NCBI RefSeq assembly: GCF_001898175.1
Contig: NZ_MKTH01000008.1
Span: 248,001 to 312,000 of the forward strand
DNA: 64,000 nucleotides
Reading direction: 5' to 3'
Source of the DNA: Cellulomonas sp. 73-92
Lineage (GTDB): Bacteria; Actinomycetota; Actinomycetes; Actinomycetales; Cellulomonadaceae
Of this stretch, positions 18,058 to 24,462 are shown piece by piece (the stretch's first letter is position 1; each line of letters opens with the position of its first letter). The notes beneath the pieces are model-generated. The model worked only from the letters and a program-made list of their open reading frames with translations, ran no database searches and was not told the origin of the DNA. The position numbers and the translations under genes are program-made.

Positions 18058-18942
18058 TCAGTGACGGGCTGCCAGGATCGAGCGCGCGATCGCCGCGGTC
18101 TCCGACGGGGTCTTGCCGACCCGGACGCCGGCGGCCTCCAGCGCGTCCTTCTTCGCCTGCGCGGTGCCCGACGAGCCGGACACGATCGCGCCGGCGTGGC
18201 CCATCGTCTTGCCCTCGGGGGCCGTGAAGCCGGCGACGTAGCCGACGACGGGCTTGGTGACGTGCTCCGTGATGAAGGCCGCGGCCCGCTCCTCGGCGTC
18301 GCCGCCGATCTCGCCGATCATGACGATCAGCTCGGTCTCCGGGTCCGCCTCGAACGCGGCCAGCGCGTCGATGTGCGTGGTCCCGATGACGGGGTCGCCC
18401 CCGATCCCGATGCAGGTGGAGAAGCCGTAGTCGGACAGCTCGAACATCATCTGGTAGGTCAGCGTGCCGGACTTCGACACCAGCCCGATCGGCCCGGCGC
18501 CGGTGATGTCCGCGGGGATGATCCCGACGTTCGAGCGGCCCGGCGTGATGAGGCCAGGGCAGTTGGGCCCGATGATGCGCGAGCCCTTGGCCTGCGCGTA
18601 CGTGAAGAACTCCGCCGTGTCGGCGACCGGGACACCCTCGGTAATGACGACGATGAGCGGCACTCCCGCGTCGACCGCCTCGACGACGGCGTCCTTGGTG
18701 AAGGCCGGCGGCACGAAGACGACCGACACGTCGGCGCCGGTCTGGCGCACGGCCGCCTCCACCGTGCCGAACACCGGCACGTCCCGCGTCGGGAAGGACA
18801 CGACCTCGCCGGCCTTGCGCGGGTTGACGCCGCCGACGACGTCGGTGCCGGAGGCGAGCATCCGGGTGGTGTGCTTGGTCCCCTCGGACCCGGTCATGCC
18901 CTGGACGATGACCTTGGACTGCTCGGTCAGGAAGACGGCCAC
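18058..18942 (-). CDS. sucD: succinyl-CoA synthetase alpha subunit
   Basis: [48 protein letters not shown]...; GHAGAIVSG. Confidence 0.97.
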
Positions 18943-18970
18943 TTCTGGTTGCTCCTCAGGTCTGCGGGTC

Positions 18971-20077
18971 TCAGGCGGCGGCCGCGAGCGCGGCGGCGGC
19001 GTCGGCGCCGCCGTCCATCGTCTCGGCCAGGGTGACGAGCGGGTGCGCGGCGGCCGCGAGGATCGCCCGGCCCTCGGCGACGTTGTTGCCGTCCAGCCGC
19101 ACGACGAGGGGCTTGGACGCCTCGTCGCCGAGCATCTCGAGCGCCGCGACGATGCCGCGCGCGACCTCGTCGCACGCCGTGATGCCGCCGAACACGTTGA
19201 CGAACACGGCCTTGACCTGCGGGTCGGACAGGATGATGTCGAGCCCGTCGGCCATCACCTGGGCCGAGGCGCCGCCGCCGATGTCGAGGAAGTTGGCGGG
19301 CCGCACCCCGCCGTGCGCCTCGCCGGCGTACGCGACGACGTCGAGCGTGCTCATGACGAGGCCCGCGCCGTTGCCGATGATGCCGACCTGGCCGTCGAGC
19401 TTGACGTAGTTGAGGTGCTTGGCCTTGGCGCGCGCCTCGAGCGGGTCCTTGCCGTCCAGGGCGATGACACGGCCGTCGGTGGTCAGCACCAGCGGGTTGA
19501 CCTCGACGAGGGTGGCGTCCTCCTCGTCGTACACCGCCCAGAGCCTGCGCAGCACCTGGGCGACGCGCGGCGCGACGGCCTCGTCGAAGCCCGCGGCCGC
19601 GACGATCTCGTCCGCCTTCGCCTCGTCGATGCCGACCAGCGGGTCGACGGGGATGCGGGCGAGCGCCTCGGGTCGCTCGACGGCGAGCTGCTCGATCTCC
19701 ATGCCGCCCTCGACGCTCGCCATCGCCAGGTAGCGGCGCTCGGCGCGGTCGAGCAGCAGGGAGACGTAGTACTCCTTGTCGATGTCGGCGCCGAGCGCGA
19801 CGAGGACGCGGTGCACGGTGTGGCCCTTGATGTCCATGCCGAGGATCTGCGCGGCGACCTGCTCGGCCTCGTCGGGCGTCCGGGCAAGCTTGACGCCGCC
19901 CGCCTTGCCGCGGCCGCCCGTCTTGACCTGAGCCTTGACCACCACGAGGCCGGCCCCACGCAGCAGCTGCTCGGCGGCGGAACGGGCCTCCGCCGGCGTG
20001 GTCGCGACGAGGCCGTCGAGGACGGGGACCTCGTGCGCGGCGAACAGGTCACGTGCCTGGTACTCGAACAGGTCCAC
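18971..20077 (-). CDS. sucC: succinyl-CoA synthetase beta subunit
   Basis: [22 protein letters not shown]...[20 protein letters not shown]...; [16 protein letters not shown]. Confidence 0.97.
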
Positions 20078-20164
20078 CCTCGGTCCTCTCGTCGGCCTCG
20101 CCGGCCCTCGTCGGCCGCGGGCTCACGCTCGGCCGGCCCGCGCCGGCTCGATCGTAGCCGGATT

Positions 20165-20178
20165 TCTCGACGTCGAGA
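20165..20178. promoter_or_regulatory. perfect palindrome upstream of sucCD
   Basis: TCTCGACGTCGAGA, 88 bp upstream of the sucC start. Confidence 0.55.
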
Positions 20179-20295
20179 CATCGGGCCGGATGCTCCCTGG
20201 GTCGGCAGGTTCGGGCCGGACCCGGGCGTCCGGGCCGCGTCACGGGACGGCCGGGGCACGCCGTCGGGGGCGAACGCGCCCAGCCGGCGCGCATG

Positions 20296-20883
20296 TCACA
20301 CGGGACGGTGCGCGGTCAGCCGGACGAGTGCCGGCAAGCCCATCACCCAGGCGTTGCGGCGCACGACGATCAGCCCGGCCCGCCGCAGCGCGCGAGCGAC
20401 GTGGCGGCTCGGCCCGCGCATCTCGACCACCACGATGGCGCCGCCCGGGGCGAGCACACGCGTGAGCTCGGCGACGCCGCCGTCGAGGTCCGGCCAGTGG
20501 TGCATCGTCAGCACCGCCGACACGACGTCGGCGGACGCGTCGGGCAGGGGCAGGTGGGCGGCGTCGCCGCGGACCACGCGGCCAGGCTCGGCCACCGGCG
20601 CCACCGGCGCCACCGCGAGCCGTGCCTGCGCCAGCTCGACCATGCGCTCCGAGGGGTCGACGCCCGTCACGCCGGCGTCCGGGCGCAGCGCGGCGATCGC
20701 CGCCGGGAGCGCCCCGGGGCCGGTCCCGACGTCCACGTAGCGCCCGCCGCGGGGCAGCGCCTCGGCGATGCGCCGCGCGGTCCGCTCGTGCATGCCGCCC
20801 ATCCAGCGCGCGTGCTCCGCGTAGCGGTCGGCGCCGTCGCCCTCGAACGTCTCGAGCCACTCGTGGTCCCGCCGATGCCCCAT
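20296..20883 (-). CDS. class I SAM-dependent methyltransferase
   Basis: GGRYVDVGTGPGALPAAIAALRPDAGVTGVDPSERMVELAQARL...LTMHHWPDLDGGVAELTRVLAPGG. Confidence 0.85.
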   Translation of the reverse strand: MGHRRDHEWLETFEGDGADRYAEHARWMGGMHERTARRIAEALPRGGRYVDVGTGPGALPAAIAALRPDAGVTGVDPSERMVELAQARLAVAPVAPVAEPGRVVRGDAAHLPLPDASADVVSAVLTMHHWPDLDGGVAELTRVLAPGGAIVVVEMRGPSRHVARALRRAGLIVVRRNAWVMGLPALVRLTAHRPV

Positions 20884-21117
20884 CGCCCCTCCTCCACGCC
20901 GCGGCCCGTCGCCGACTCGCTCGCTCGACGCCGAGCGCACATCCTCCCCCGCACGACCGACGTCCGCAGCCACACGCAGACACGCCTCCCGGCCCGCGCC
21001 CCTCTCGCGCACCCCTCACGCGCCCCCCCTGCCCGTCGAGCGCCGGTGTCCTCCTCCGAGCGCCGCCCTCGTTTCACCGGCGCTCGGTGGACATCTGCGG
21101 CGTTCGACGAGGAGGGC

Positions 21118-21161
21118 GTCAACATGGGTTGACACGGACAAGGGTGTCAACGTAGGTTGAC
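21118..21161 (+). promoter_or_regulatory. twin palindromic operators over the promoter of the HTH/Clp_N operon
   Basis: GTCAAC-ATGG-GTTGAC (21118-21133) and GTCAAC-GTAG-GTTGAC (21146-21161); TTGACA (21129-34), 18 bp spacer, TAGGTT (21153-58), ATG at 21165. Confidence 0.8.
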
Positions 21162-21164
21162 GGC

Positions 21165-21374
21165 ATGTCCAGCGACCTGATGTCCGCCGCCGCGGGCGAC
21201 GACCCCGCCGAGGGGCTCCACGCCGTCCGCTCGCTGCGCGTCCTGGCCGACCGGCTGGAGGCGTTGCACGTCGAACGCGCCCGCCGGCTCGGCTGGCCGT
21301 GGCAGCACATCGCCGACGTGCTCGGCGTGACGCGGCAGGCGGTCCACAAGAAGTACGGGAAGAGGTTCCCCTGA
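21165..21374 (+). CDS. small helix-turn-helix protein
   Basis: 69 aa; RARRLGWPWQHIADVLGVTRQAVHKKYGKRFP. Confidence 0.85.
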   Translation: MSSDLMSAAAGDDPAEGLHAVRSLRVLADRLEALHVERARRLGWPWQHIADVLGVTRQAVHKKYGKRFP

Positions 21375-21919
21375 TGTACGAACGATTCACACGCAGCGCC
21401 CGCCAGGCCGTCGTCTGGGCCGAGGAGGCCGGCCGCCGCGAGGGCGCCGACCACATCGAGTCCGGCCATGTGCTGCTCGGCGCGGTCCACGTCGAACGGT
21501 CGGTCGCGGCACGCGCCCTCGCCCGCCTCGGCATCGAGCCGGACTCGCTCGCCGAGTGCGTCCGCTCCCTGAAGACCGACAGCCTCGACGCCGACGCGCT
21601 CGCGGGCATCGGCGTCGACCTGGAGGCCGTGCGCGCCCAGGTCGAGGCGACGTTCGGCGCCGGCGCGCTCGACGCTGCCACCAGGCCGCGCCGCACCAAG
21701 GGCCACGTCCCCTTCGACCCCGCCGCCAAGAAGATGCTCGAGCTGGCGCTGCGCGAGGCGATCCGGTTCAGGAGCAAGGGCATCGACACCGGACACCTGC
21801 TGCTCGCCGCCGCCCGCCTGGACGGCGCCGCCGCCCAGAAGGCGCTGGCATGGTTCGGCCACGACCGCAAGGCCATCGAGGACGCGGTGGTGGCCGCCTG
21901 GGCGGACGCCGGCGAGTAG
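21374..21919 (+). CDS. stand-alone Clp N-terminal (Clp_N repeat) domain protein
   Basis: MYERFTRSARQAVVWAEEAGRREGADHIESGHVLLGAVH... and FDPAAKKMLELALREAIRFRSKGIDTGHLLLAAAR; two Clp_N repeats, no AAA+ domain; TGATG overlap with HTH gene. Confidence 0.9.
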   Translation: MYERFTRSARQAVVWAEEAGRREGADHIESGHVLLGAVHVERSVAARALARLGIEPDSLAECVRSLKTDSLDADALAGIGVDLEAVRAQVEATFGAGALDAATRPRRTKGHVPFDPAAKKMLELALREAIRFRSKGIDTGHLLLAAARLDGAAAQKALAWFGHDRKAIEDAVVAAWADAGE

Positions 21920-22029
21920 GTGGTGCTGGCGTACGCGCGCTGGCGGGAACCCGGCCGTCCTGACGCCTTGGGCTCAGACGGGTGGGGGCTCGACGAGGTC
22001 GGGAACGAGATCCCGGTGAGCCGCCGGCC

Positions 22030-24462
22030 CTACAGCTTGGTGACGGGCGAGAACCGGAGCAGCAGCCGCTTGGTGCCCGACGAGCCGAAGTCCACCTTCG
22101 CCACCGCGTTCTGCCCGACCCCCTCGAGGGCGACCACCGTGCCGAGCCCGTAGGCGTCGTGCGTCACCTTGTCGCCCACCGCCAGGCTCGGCACGTCGGC
22201 GCGGGGGGTGGCCGAGCCGAACGTCGCCCCGGTCTTCGGCAGCGCCGGCCGCTCCTCGTCCTTCGGCTTGCGGCCCCAGCCCGAGCCCGACGAGCGACCG
22301 GCGCCGAAGCCGGACCCCCACCCGCCGCGGATCGACGACGTCGACGATTCCCGCCGCCGCCAGTCGATGAGGTCCTCGGGCAGGTCGGCGAGGAAGCGGC
22401 TCGGCGGGAACTCGTTCGGGACGCCCCACGCCGTACGGATCGCGGCGCGCGAGATGTACAGGCGCTCGCGCGCCCTGGTCACGCCCACGTAGGCCAGCCT
22501 GCGCTCCTCCTCGAGCTGCTCCGGGTCGGACAGCGAGCGCACGTGCGGGAACGTGCCGTCCTCCATGCCGGTGAGGAACACCACCGGGAACTCCAGGCCC
22601 TTGGCGGTGTGCAGCGTCATGAGGGTGACGACCCCGGGATCCGGCCCGGTCACCTCGTCCGCGCCGTCCGGCGTGGGGATCTGGTCGGAGTCGGCGACGA
22701 GCGACACGCGTTCGAGGAAGTCCGCCAGGTCACCCTCGGGGTCGCTCTGCTCGAACTCGGTGGCCACGGCGTGCAGCTCGGCGAGGTTGTCGACCCGCGA
22801 GCCGTCCTGCGGGTCGTCGGACGCCCGCAGCTCCGCGAGGTAGCCGGAGCGGTCGAGCACGGCCCCCAGCACCTCGGACGGCCCGGCAGACGCGGCCAGC
22901 TCCCGCAGGCCGCCCAGCAGGTCGCGGAACGCCGCGAGCCCGCTCACCGCCCGCGTGCCGAGGCCCGGCACCTCGTCGACCCGCTCGAGGGCGGCCCCGA
23001 ACGAGATCCGCTCCCGCTCCGCGAACGCCGCCACCATCGCCTCGGACCGCTCCCCCAGCCCCCGCTTGGGCACGTTGAGCACGCGCCGCAGGTTGACGTC
23101 GTCGTCCGGGTTGGCGATGACACGCAGGTAGGCGATCGCGTCCTTGATCTCGCGCCGCTCGTAGAACCGGGTGCCGCCGACGACCTTGTAGGGCAGGCCG
23201 ACGCGGACCAGCACCTCCTCGATCGCGCGGGACTGGCTGTTGGTGCGGTAGAACACCGCCACGTCGCCGGGCCGCACACCGCCGGCGTCCCCCAGGCGGT
23301 CGATCTCCTCGGCGACGAACCGCGCCTCCTCCCGCTCGTCGTCCGCGACGTAGGCGACGATCTGCGGGCCGGCGCCCTGGTCGGTCCAGAGCCGCTTCGG
23401 CTTGCGGCCGGGGTTCTTGGCGATGACGGCGTTCGCCGCCGAGAGGATGTTCTGCGTCGACCGGTAGTTCTGCTCGAGCATGATCGTCGACGCGTCCGGG
23501 TAGTCCGCCTCGAACTCGAGGATGTTGCGGATCGACGCGCCACGGAACGCGTAGATCGACTGGTCGGCGTCGCCCACCACCGTGAGCTCGCCGCGCTCCA
23601 CCCCGTCCGACCCGTCGCCGACGAGCGTGCGCACCAGCACGTACTGCGCGTGGTTCGTGTCCTGGTACTCGTCGACCAGCACGTGGCGGAACCGGCGGTG
23701 GTAGTGCTCGGCGATCGCCGGGAAGGCCTGGAGCAGGTGCACGGTCTCCGAGATCAGGTCGTCGAAGTCCATCGCGTTCGCCTGCCGCAGCCGCGTGGTG
23801 TACCGCGTGTACACGTCCGCCAGCACGGAGTCGAAGTCGTTGCTGCCGGTCCCGCTCGTCGCGGCGAACCGCTCGGCGTCGACCAGCTCGTCCTTGAGGT
23901 TGGAGATCTTCGCCGCCATCGCCTTGACCGGGTACTTCTTCGGGTCGAGGTCCAGCTCCCGGGCTACCAGGGTGAGCAGCCGCTGGCTGTCGGCCGCGTC
24001 GTAGATCGAGAACGACGAGCGCAGCCCGAGCGAGGTCGCCTCGCGCCGCAGGATCCGCACGCAGGCCGAGTGGAAGGTCGACACCCACATCCGCTGCGCC
24101 GCCGGGCCGACGAGCGCCTCGACGCGCTCGCGCATCTCGGCGGCCGCCTTGTTGGTGAACGTGATCGCGAGGATCTCCCCCGGCCGCGCCCGCTTCGTCG
24201 AGAGGAGGTGAGCGATGCGATGGGTGAGCACCCTCGTCTTGCCCGATCCGGCCCCGGCGACGATGAGCAGCGGCCCGCCCTCGTGGAGCACCGCCTCGCG
24301 CTGCTGCGGGTTGAGGCCCCGGATCAGCGCGTCCGCGTCTGGGAAGCGCGGGGGCGCCTCCTCCGGCTGGTCGTCGCGCGGGGGCACGACGAGCGGCAGT
24401 CCGGACGGGTCCCCCGGGTGCGGCGCGTGGGTGGCGGGCAGGTGCTCGAACAGCGACGTCAT
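22030..24462 (-). CDS. pcrA: ATP-dependent DNA helicase PcrA/UvrD
   Basis: LNPQQREAVLHEGGPLLIVAGAGSGKTRVLTHRIAHLL...; VDEYQDTNHAQY; VTLMTLHTAKGLEFPVVFLTGMEDGTFPH. Confidence 0.95.
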   Translation of the reverse strand: MTSLFEHLPATHAPHPGDPSGLPLVVPPRDDQPEEAPPRFPDADALIRGLNPQQREAVLHEGGPLLIVAGAGSGKTRVLTHRIAHLLSTKRARPGEILAITFTNKAAAEMRERVEALVGPAAQRMWVSTFHSACVRILRREATSLGLRSSFSIYDAADSQRLLTLVARELDLDPKKYPVKAMAAKISNLKDELVDAERFAATSGTGSNDFDSVLADVYTRYTTRLRQANAMDFDDLISETVHLLQAFPAIAEHYHRRFRHVLVDEYQDTNHAQYVLVRTLVGDGSDGVERGELTVVGDADQSIYAFRGASIRNILEFEADYPDASTIMLEQNYRSTQNILSAANAVIAKNPGRKPKRLWTDQGAGPQIVAYVADDEREEARFVAEEIDRLGDAGGVRPGDVAVFYRTNSQSRAIEEVLVRVGLPYKVVGGTRFYERREIKDAIAYLRVIANPDDDVNLRRVLNVPKRGLGERSEAMVAAFAERERISFGAALERVDEVPGLGTRAVSGLAAFRDLLGGLRELAASAGPSEVLGAVLDRSGYLAELRASDDPQDGSRVDNLAELHAVATEFEQSDPEGDLADFLERVSLVADSDQIPTPDGADEVTGPDPGVVTLMTLHTAKGLEFPVVFLTGMEDGTFPHVRSLSDPEQLEEERRLAYVGVTRARERLYISRAAIRTAWGVPNEFPPSRFLADLPEDLIDWRRRESSTSSIRGGWGSGFGAGRSSGSGWGRKPKDEERPALPKTGATFGSATPRADVPSLAVGDKVTHDAYGLGTVVALEGVGQNAVAKVDFGSSGTKRLLLRFSPVTKL

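Follow-up and report, generated by a model that had tools for sequence, protein, structure and literature searches.

A Putative Split, Two-Gene Module Resembling the Autorepressor ClpC2 in Cellulomonas

In a stretch of 64,000 nucleotides from the soil bacterium Cellulomonas sp. 73-92 (contig NZ_MKTH01000008.1, positions 248,001 to 312,000; hereafter the window), a gene for a small helix-turn-helix (HTH) protein, P0001, is followed by a gene for a stand-alone Clp_N protein, P0002, and preceded by twin palindromes. Since palindromes and proteins together match ClpC2 of mycobacteria, this region looks like a split, two-gene ClpC2-like module. It appears reasonably probable that the pair as a whole works as a two-protein autorepressor and ligand sponge of the ClpC2 type. 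An earlier note on this DNA knew of no characterized mechanism for such an arrangement; one exists in fused form, in ClpC2 (PMC10030653). No published work on the split pair was found in a literature search mostly confined to papers available without subscription.

The Gene Pair

The positions of both genes and of their control elements are listed in table 1. The earlier note had described a 69-amino acid HTH reading frame overlapping (TGATG) a 181-amino acid one with two Clp_N repeats and neither an AAA+ nor a protease domain. Both were recovered; they lie in different frames with a stop codon in between and have one base in common, and Clp_N was the only Pfam domain matched in the second.

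P0001 matched HTH_23 of Pfam (E = 2.4e-4) with a score under the Pfam gathering score, an HTH model of PHROG (E = 1.4e-6) and its own family profile. Its AlphaFold2 model (pLDDT 89) has helices at residues 14–41, 46–53, and 57–64. A Foldseek search with this short model returned no significant match, the best one (E = 0.47) being a mycobacteriophage repressor:DNA complex. P0002 matched PF02861 (Clp_N) at E = 2.5e-13 in three stretches, and a structure search with its model (pLDDT 93) retrieved N-domains of ClpC1/ClpC from the PDB. The AAA+ ATPase modules of Clp unfoldases are absent from this protein. An Rfam scan of positions 20800–22100 found no match to an RNA family.

Table 1. Positions in the Window of the Gene Pair and Its Predicted Control Elements
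Feature	Position	Strand	Remarks
Distal operator CGTCAAC-ATGG-GTTGACA	21117-21134		Perfect 6-bp inverted repeat GTCAAC-N4-GTTGAC at 21118-21133
Candidate -35 TTGACA	21129-21134		Right half of distal operator
Proximal operator TGTCAAC-GTAG-GTTGACG	21145-21162		Perfect 6-bp inverted repeat GTCAAC-N4-GTTGAC at 21146-21161
Candidate -10 TAGGTT (TANNNT)	21153-21158		Within proximal operator; 18-nt spacer to -35; ATG at 21165
P0001, 69-aa HTH protein, putative DNA-binding repressor subunit	21165-21374	+	ATG start; recognition helix = residues 57-64
P0002, 181-aa protein, two Clp_N repeats and inter-repeat element (residues about 72-101), putative ligand sensor and ClpC1 N-domain decoy	21374-21919	+	ATG start

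Distribution and Neighborhood

The HTH protein was detected in 218 of 297 Actinomycetes genomes. The 261 distinct HTH loci comprise 212 split HTH/Clp_N pairs, 12 fused genes, 36 loci lacking Clp_N, and one at the edge of a contig; the fused loci were fetched deliberately from Mycobacteriaceae, so these counts do not give the natural ratio of split to fused forms. A check of neighborhood conservation, which the earlier note had proposed, thus came out in favor of the pair: a separate Clp_N gene lies directly downstream in 212 of the 261 loci, and the close relatives have the pair as well. When the best 80 HTH loci of GTDB genomes were inspected, a Clp_N match (weak in L108 and L123) followed closely downstream in 78; one of the remaining two ends at a contig edge (L138) and the other has no Clp_N (L139). 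The HTH protein of C. chitinilytica (L065) is 82% identical to P0001.

In the window (18058–24462), the pair has sucCD, together with a methyltransferase-like ORF, on one side and pcrA on the other. This neighborhood is kept in Cellulomonas and Isoptericola and partly in Promicromonospora. The pair is nearly missing from the phages and plasmids searched. Outside actinobacteria, a plasmid of the marine organism Agarilytica rhodophyticola (NZ_CP021745.1, 51479–51676) encodes an HTH protein with 39% identity.

HTH genes without a Clp_N neighbor were found at L028-L031, L044-L046, L217, L226, L234, L235, L242, and other loci, many of which have GTCAAC palindromes; at L028 a DUF308/HdeD-like membrane protein is encoded downstream. 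In two Mycobacteriaceae loci (L269 and L281), a related HTH is fused to another domain, perhaps representing the DUF3887 fusions described for relatives of RelI (PMC13284704). Mycobacterium phage Phabba (MF668280; L289:2001-2666), and Myrna too, encodes a stand-alone protein close to the N-domain of ClpC1. As it resembles that domain and comes with neither an HTH of this family nor an operator, it was rejected as a phage version of the pair; it may serve the phage as a ClpC1 decoy or hijacker.

Operators and Promoter

The twin palindromes upstream of P0001, absent from the earlier note, are the only two sites found when the entire 3.7-Mb genome was scanned with GTCAACNNNNGTTGAC, allowing up to one mismatch. 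The idea of a wider regulon was therefore rejected for this genome, and the presence of the operator solely before the pair itself argues for self-regulation.

The arrangement recurs throughout the family. At least two GTCA-N8-TGAC sites are present upstream in 172 of the 206 split loci with a readable recognition helix, and any such site was seen in 8 of 260 control regions. The starts of the two palindromes are 27–29 nt apart in 173 split loci. TANNNT was found in 131 of these 173 proximal operators versus 16 of the distal ones, TTGACA closes the distal operator in 122, and in every one (173/173) the TANNNT position is 6–9 nt ahead of the first in-frame start codon. This spacing suggests that the mRNA of the pair is probably leaderless, and both the candidate -35 and the candidate -10 would lie inside operators, as with ClpC2. 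A generic sigma-70 promoter scanner found no promoter, because it requires a box close to TATAAT; the TANNNT comparison across the 173 split loci of the family was used in its place.

The Clp_N Partner

Of the three cyclomarin-contact residues of ClpC2 that were compared, two are kept in P0002. The contacts F172 and E181 correspond to F114 and E123, which are usual across the family. The equivalent of F96 is Tyr2 in P0002 and Phe in 155 of 212 partners. Because of this Tyr at a key Phe position, the affinity of the pocket may differ. The same Phe-to-Tyr change is found in the ClpC1 F2Y mutant, which was crystallized with cyclomarin (PDB 3WDD).

Between its two Clp_N repeats, P0002 contains an extra helical segment (residues about 72–101) that the earlier note did not mention. 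His32 and the pocket Phe are 82 residues apart in P0002, 48 in the host's own ClpC1, and 45–54 in fused ClpC2; the insert is missing from the latter two. Within it, Leu76 is present in 208 of 212 partners and Gly80 in all 212, and both are better kept than any pocket residue, although the alignment near this element is uncertain for divergent partners. Since the HTH protein is the sole constant companion of these Clp_N proteins, the element may be the surface that docks on it.

In two loci (L023:500-1465 and L032:515-1468, both on the minus strand), a single Clp_N match is followed by a polyketide-cyclase/START-like domain (PF10604). The second half of these partners thus differs and pocket residues are lost, yet the HTH gene adjoins and the Leu76/Gly80 element is kept. 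They possibly sense other ligands.

Proposed Mechanism and Alternatives

The closest characterized system is ClpC2 (Rv2667 in Mycobacterium tuberculosis; also studied in M. smegmatis), which is composed of a dimerizing N-terminal part (residues 4–72, PDB 8ADA) and a part resembling the N-domain of ClpC1 that binds cyclomarin (residues 94–252, PDB 8AD9) (PMC10030653). The mRNA of ClpC2 is leaderless, and the -35 and -10 are overlapped by CGTCAAC-n5-GTTGACG palindromes by way of which the protein represses its own promoter; binding of cyclomarin to its Clp_N domain lifts this autorepression, and the protein acts as a cyclomarin sponge (PMC10030653). The profile of the HTH family matches fused ClpC2 of Mycobacteriaceae at about 1e-9 and 8ADA at E = 4e-4, and 8AD9 is among the structural matches of P0002. 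All 12 fused loci have GTCAAC-N5-GTTGAC upstream, 11 of them twice. Moreover, the dimer salt bridge Asp46-Arg57 of ClpC2 corresponds to Asp29-Arg40 in P0001, where the family has an acidic residue in 209 and Arg in 191 of 212 proteins.

By homology with ClpC2, on which the coupling of the two proteins, the ligand, and the benefit all depend, the pair might work as follows. The HTH protein would dimerize, as does the N-terminal domain of ClpC2, and the dimer would bind the twin palindromes containing the -35 and -10 of its leaderless promoter, keeping expression of the operon low. The docking domain of ClpC1 exists as a free-standing copy in the cotranslated Clp_N protein, which would be the ligand-sensing subunit and would bind the HTH protein directly via its extra inter-repeat element. 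A ligand of the ClpC1 N-domain, be it an adaptor, a damaged protein, or a peptide of the cyclomarin type, would fill the pocket and thereby lift repression, either because unliganded Clp_N aids repression or because liganded Clp_N strips the HTH protein off DNA. The accumulating Clp_N protein would then soak up the ligand and spare ClpC1. As cyclomarin releases the autorepression of ClpC2, the best-documented input would, by analogy, be a ClpC1-targeting peptide for which Clp_N serves as sponge; heat would be a weaker one.

It is also conceivable, if unlikely, that the HTH protein is simply an autorepressor, with the Clp_N protein as a cargo (a decoy or adaptor of ClpC1) that never touches it, and that some other signal brings about derepression. 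The operators, the promoter, and the HTH code need no contact between the two proteins, and translational coupling alone could hold their genes together. However, divergent partners that have lost pocket residues, such as those at L023 and L032, still adjoin the HTH gene with their Leu76/Gly80 element intact, and in ClpC2 both parts belong to one protein, which ligand binding releases from DNA (PMC10030653).

The earlier note had favored a proteostasis-sensing switch in which the orphan Clp_N protein modulates the HTH repressor. The latter part agrees with the co-conservation of the pair and with the operators before its own operon. A stress response governed by the pair, with Clp_N as the sensor of damaged or heat-unfolded protein, seems rather improbable: heat shock raises clpC2 mRNA about 2-fold and a holdase role was suggested (PMC10030653), and M. 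smegmatis clpC3 is induced in cold stress (PMC10454040), but the strongest known inducer of the homolog is cyclomarin, and in this genome the operator stands only before the promoter of the pair, which argues against a wider proteostasis regulon.

Which Part Reads the DNA

Having both the HTH and the Clp_N halves as separate proteins, the preferred split autorepressor raises the matter of which of them recognizes the operator. The recognition helix of P0001 begins with R57 Q58 A59 V60 H61, so that residue 59 is the third in the helix. Across the family, Ala at this position goes with GTCAAC half-sites, Thr with GTCAGC or GTCAGA, and Ser with GTCAGT; reduced to classes, residue 59 and operator base 5 (A vs. 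G) are concordant in 189 of 190 loci. On the best tree, the residue-59 class changed 7 times and the operator class 8 times, and three independent pairs on well-supported branches all point in the same direction, a number too small for a significant sign test. Among HTH positions, 59 shares the most mutual information with the operator base (0.64 bits) and 62, which is also in the recognition helix, comes second (0.49 bits); Clp_N positions reach at most 0.38 bits.

In ClpC2, the DNA-binding surface was proposed to lie in the Clp_N part: the R185A/R189A mutant binds DNA more weakly and the equivalent M. smegmatis mutant is derepressed 2-fold (PMC10030653). P0002 has Arg at both equivalent positions. 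If the same held for the split pairs, the HTH protein would mainly dimerize, which we regard as very unlikely. The equivalent of R189 is variable (Ala in 81 and Arg in 61 of 212 split partners) and is Ala even in 59 of the 142 partners that keep the GTCAAC operator, that of R185 is lost in most partners of the GTCAGT class, and operator sequence tracks the recognition helix of the HTH protein. The ClpC2 dimer mutant R57A was also derepressed more strongly, 4.6-fold (PMC10030653). In addition, the last residue of 8ADA matches Val55 of P0001, just before the recognition helix. This crystal derived from a proteolysed fragment (PMC10030653), and the lack of the helix in it would explain how an HTH in ClpC2 could have escaped notice. 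A 2026 paper on the related antitoxin RelI does mention an HTH region in ClpC2 (PMC13284704). Given the residue-59 code and the promoter layout, the HTH, and not the Clp_N arginines named for ClpC2, is most likely the part that reads operator DNA. The comparison of hundreds of pairs therefore points to the recognition helix and calls the published assignment for ClpC2 into question.

Wider Significance

ClpC1 is a tuberculosis drug target at which cyclomarin is aimed, and ClpC2 blunts this compound. The split form places the DNA-reading and ligand-sensing halves in two proteins and so opens the mechanism to direct testing; such pairs could also act as natural reporters in the search for new compounds that bind ClpC1. 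With the HTH present in 218 of 297 Actinomycetes genomes, protection of the ClpC docking site may be something that soil bacteria producing antibiotics, and their neighbors, commonly require.

We tentatively propose a still broader picture, plausible although somewhat short of probable: a large Actinomycetes family in which an HTH protein with a simple operator code is combined with interchangeable Clp_N partners that dock by the inter-repeat element and monitor different attackers or clients of ClpC1 (or other ligands, where the pocket has decayed or the protein has gained a polyketide-cyclase-like domain), ClpC2 being one fused branch whose DNA site resides in its HTH.

Comparison with Known Systems

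The HTH region of P0001 is related to that of the antitoxin RelI (Rv2664), which shares it with ClpC2, and the family profile matches the RelI structure 9sdc at E = 4e-6. The partner of RelI is the toxin RelS, unlike the Clp_N protein of the present pair, and no evidence of DNA binding by RelI was found by its authors (PMC13284704). No RelE-superfamily toxin gene lies beside P0001, the neighbors being Clp_N, pcrA, the methyltransferase-like ORF, and sucCD. Clp_N is a docking domain and is not known as a toxin. A toxin–antitoxin or antiphage defense module, as the common HTH region of RelI and ClpC2 (PMC13284704) might suggest, is thus highly improbable, and a mobile or defense element was rejected in view of the lack of any PADLOC model match for P0001 or P0002, the stable core site that the pair occupies next to pcrA and sucCD both in Cellulomonas and in related genera, and the near absence of phage and plasmid copies.

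P0002 shares its two Clp_N repeats with the N-terminal domain of ClpC1, its best structural match (PDB 9DIN, 3WDC, and others). Unlike ClpC1, it is encoded by a separate small gene, lacks AAA+ modules, carries Tyr rather than Phe at position 2, and has its repeats set apart by about 34 additional residues. It is also similar to ClpC3 of M. smegmatis (MSMEG_3761), another small protein resembling the ClpC1 N-domain, which is reported to be induced and to bind cyclomarin-type ligands (PMC10864484, PMC10746685).

The function of ClpC2, whose M. smegmatis form is PDB 8B9O, is proven, and that of the window pair is predicted. ClpC2 is one polypeptide and the window pair two proteins; the operator spacer is N5 in ClpC2 and N4 in the window and in split pairs generally; the recognition helix reads TKQAAQKRF in ClpC2 and TRQAVHKKY in P0001; and the inter-repeat element is an addition of the window Clp_N partner. 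On the other hand, both systems combine an HTH-type part, dimerizing in ClpC2, with a ClpC1-N-domain-like part of two Clp_N repeats, two of the three cyclomarin contacts compared are kept in P0002, and in both cases two tandem GTCAAC...GTTGAC palindromes cover the -35 and -10 (candidates in the window) directly before the start codon.
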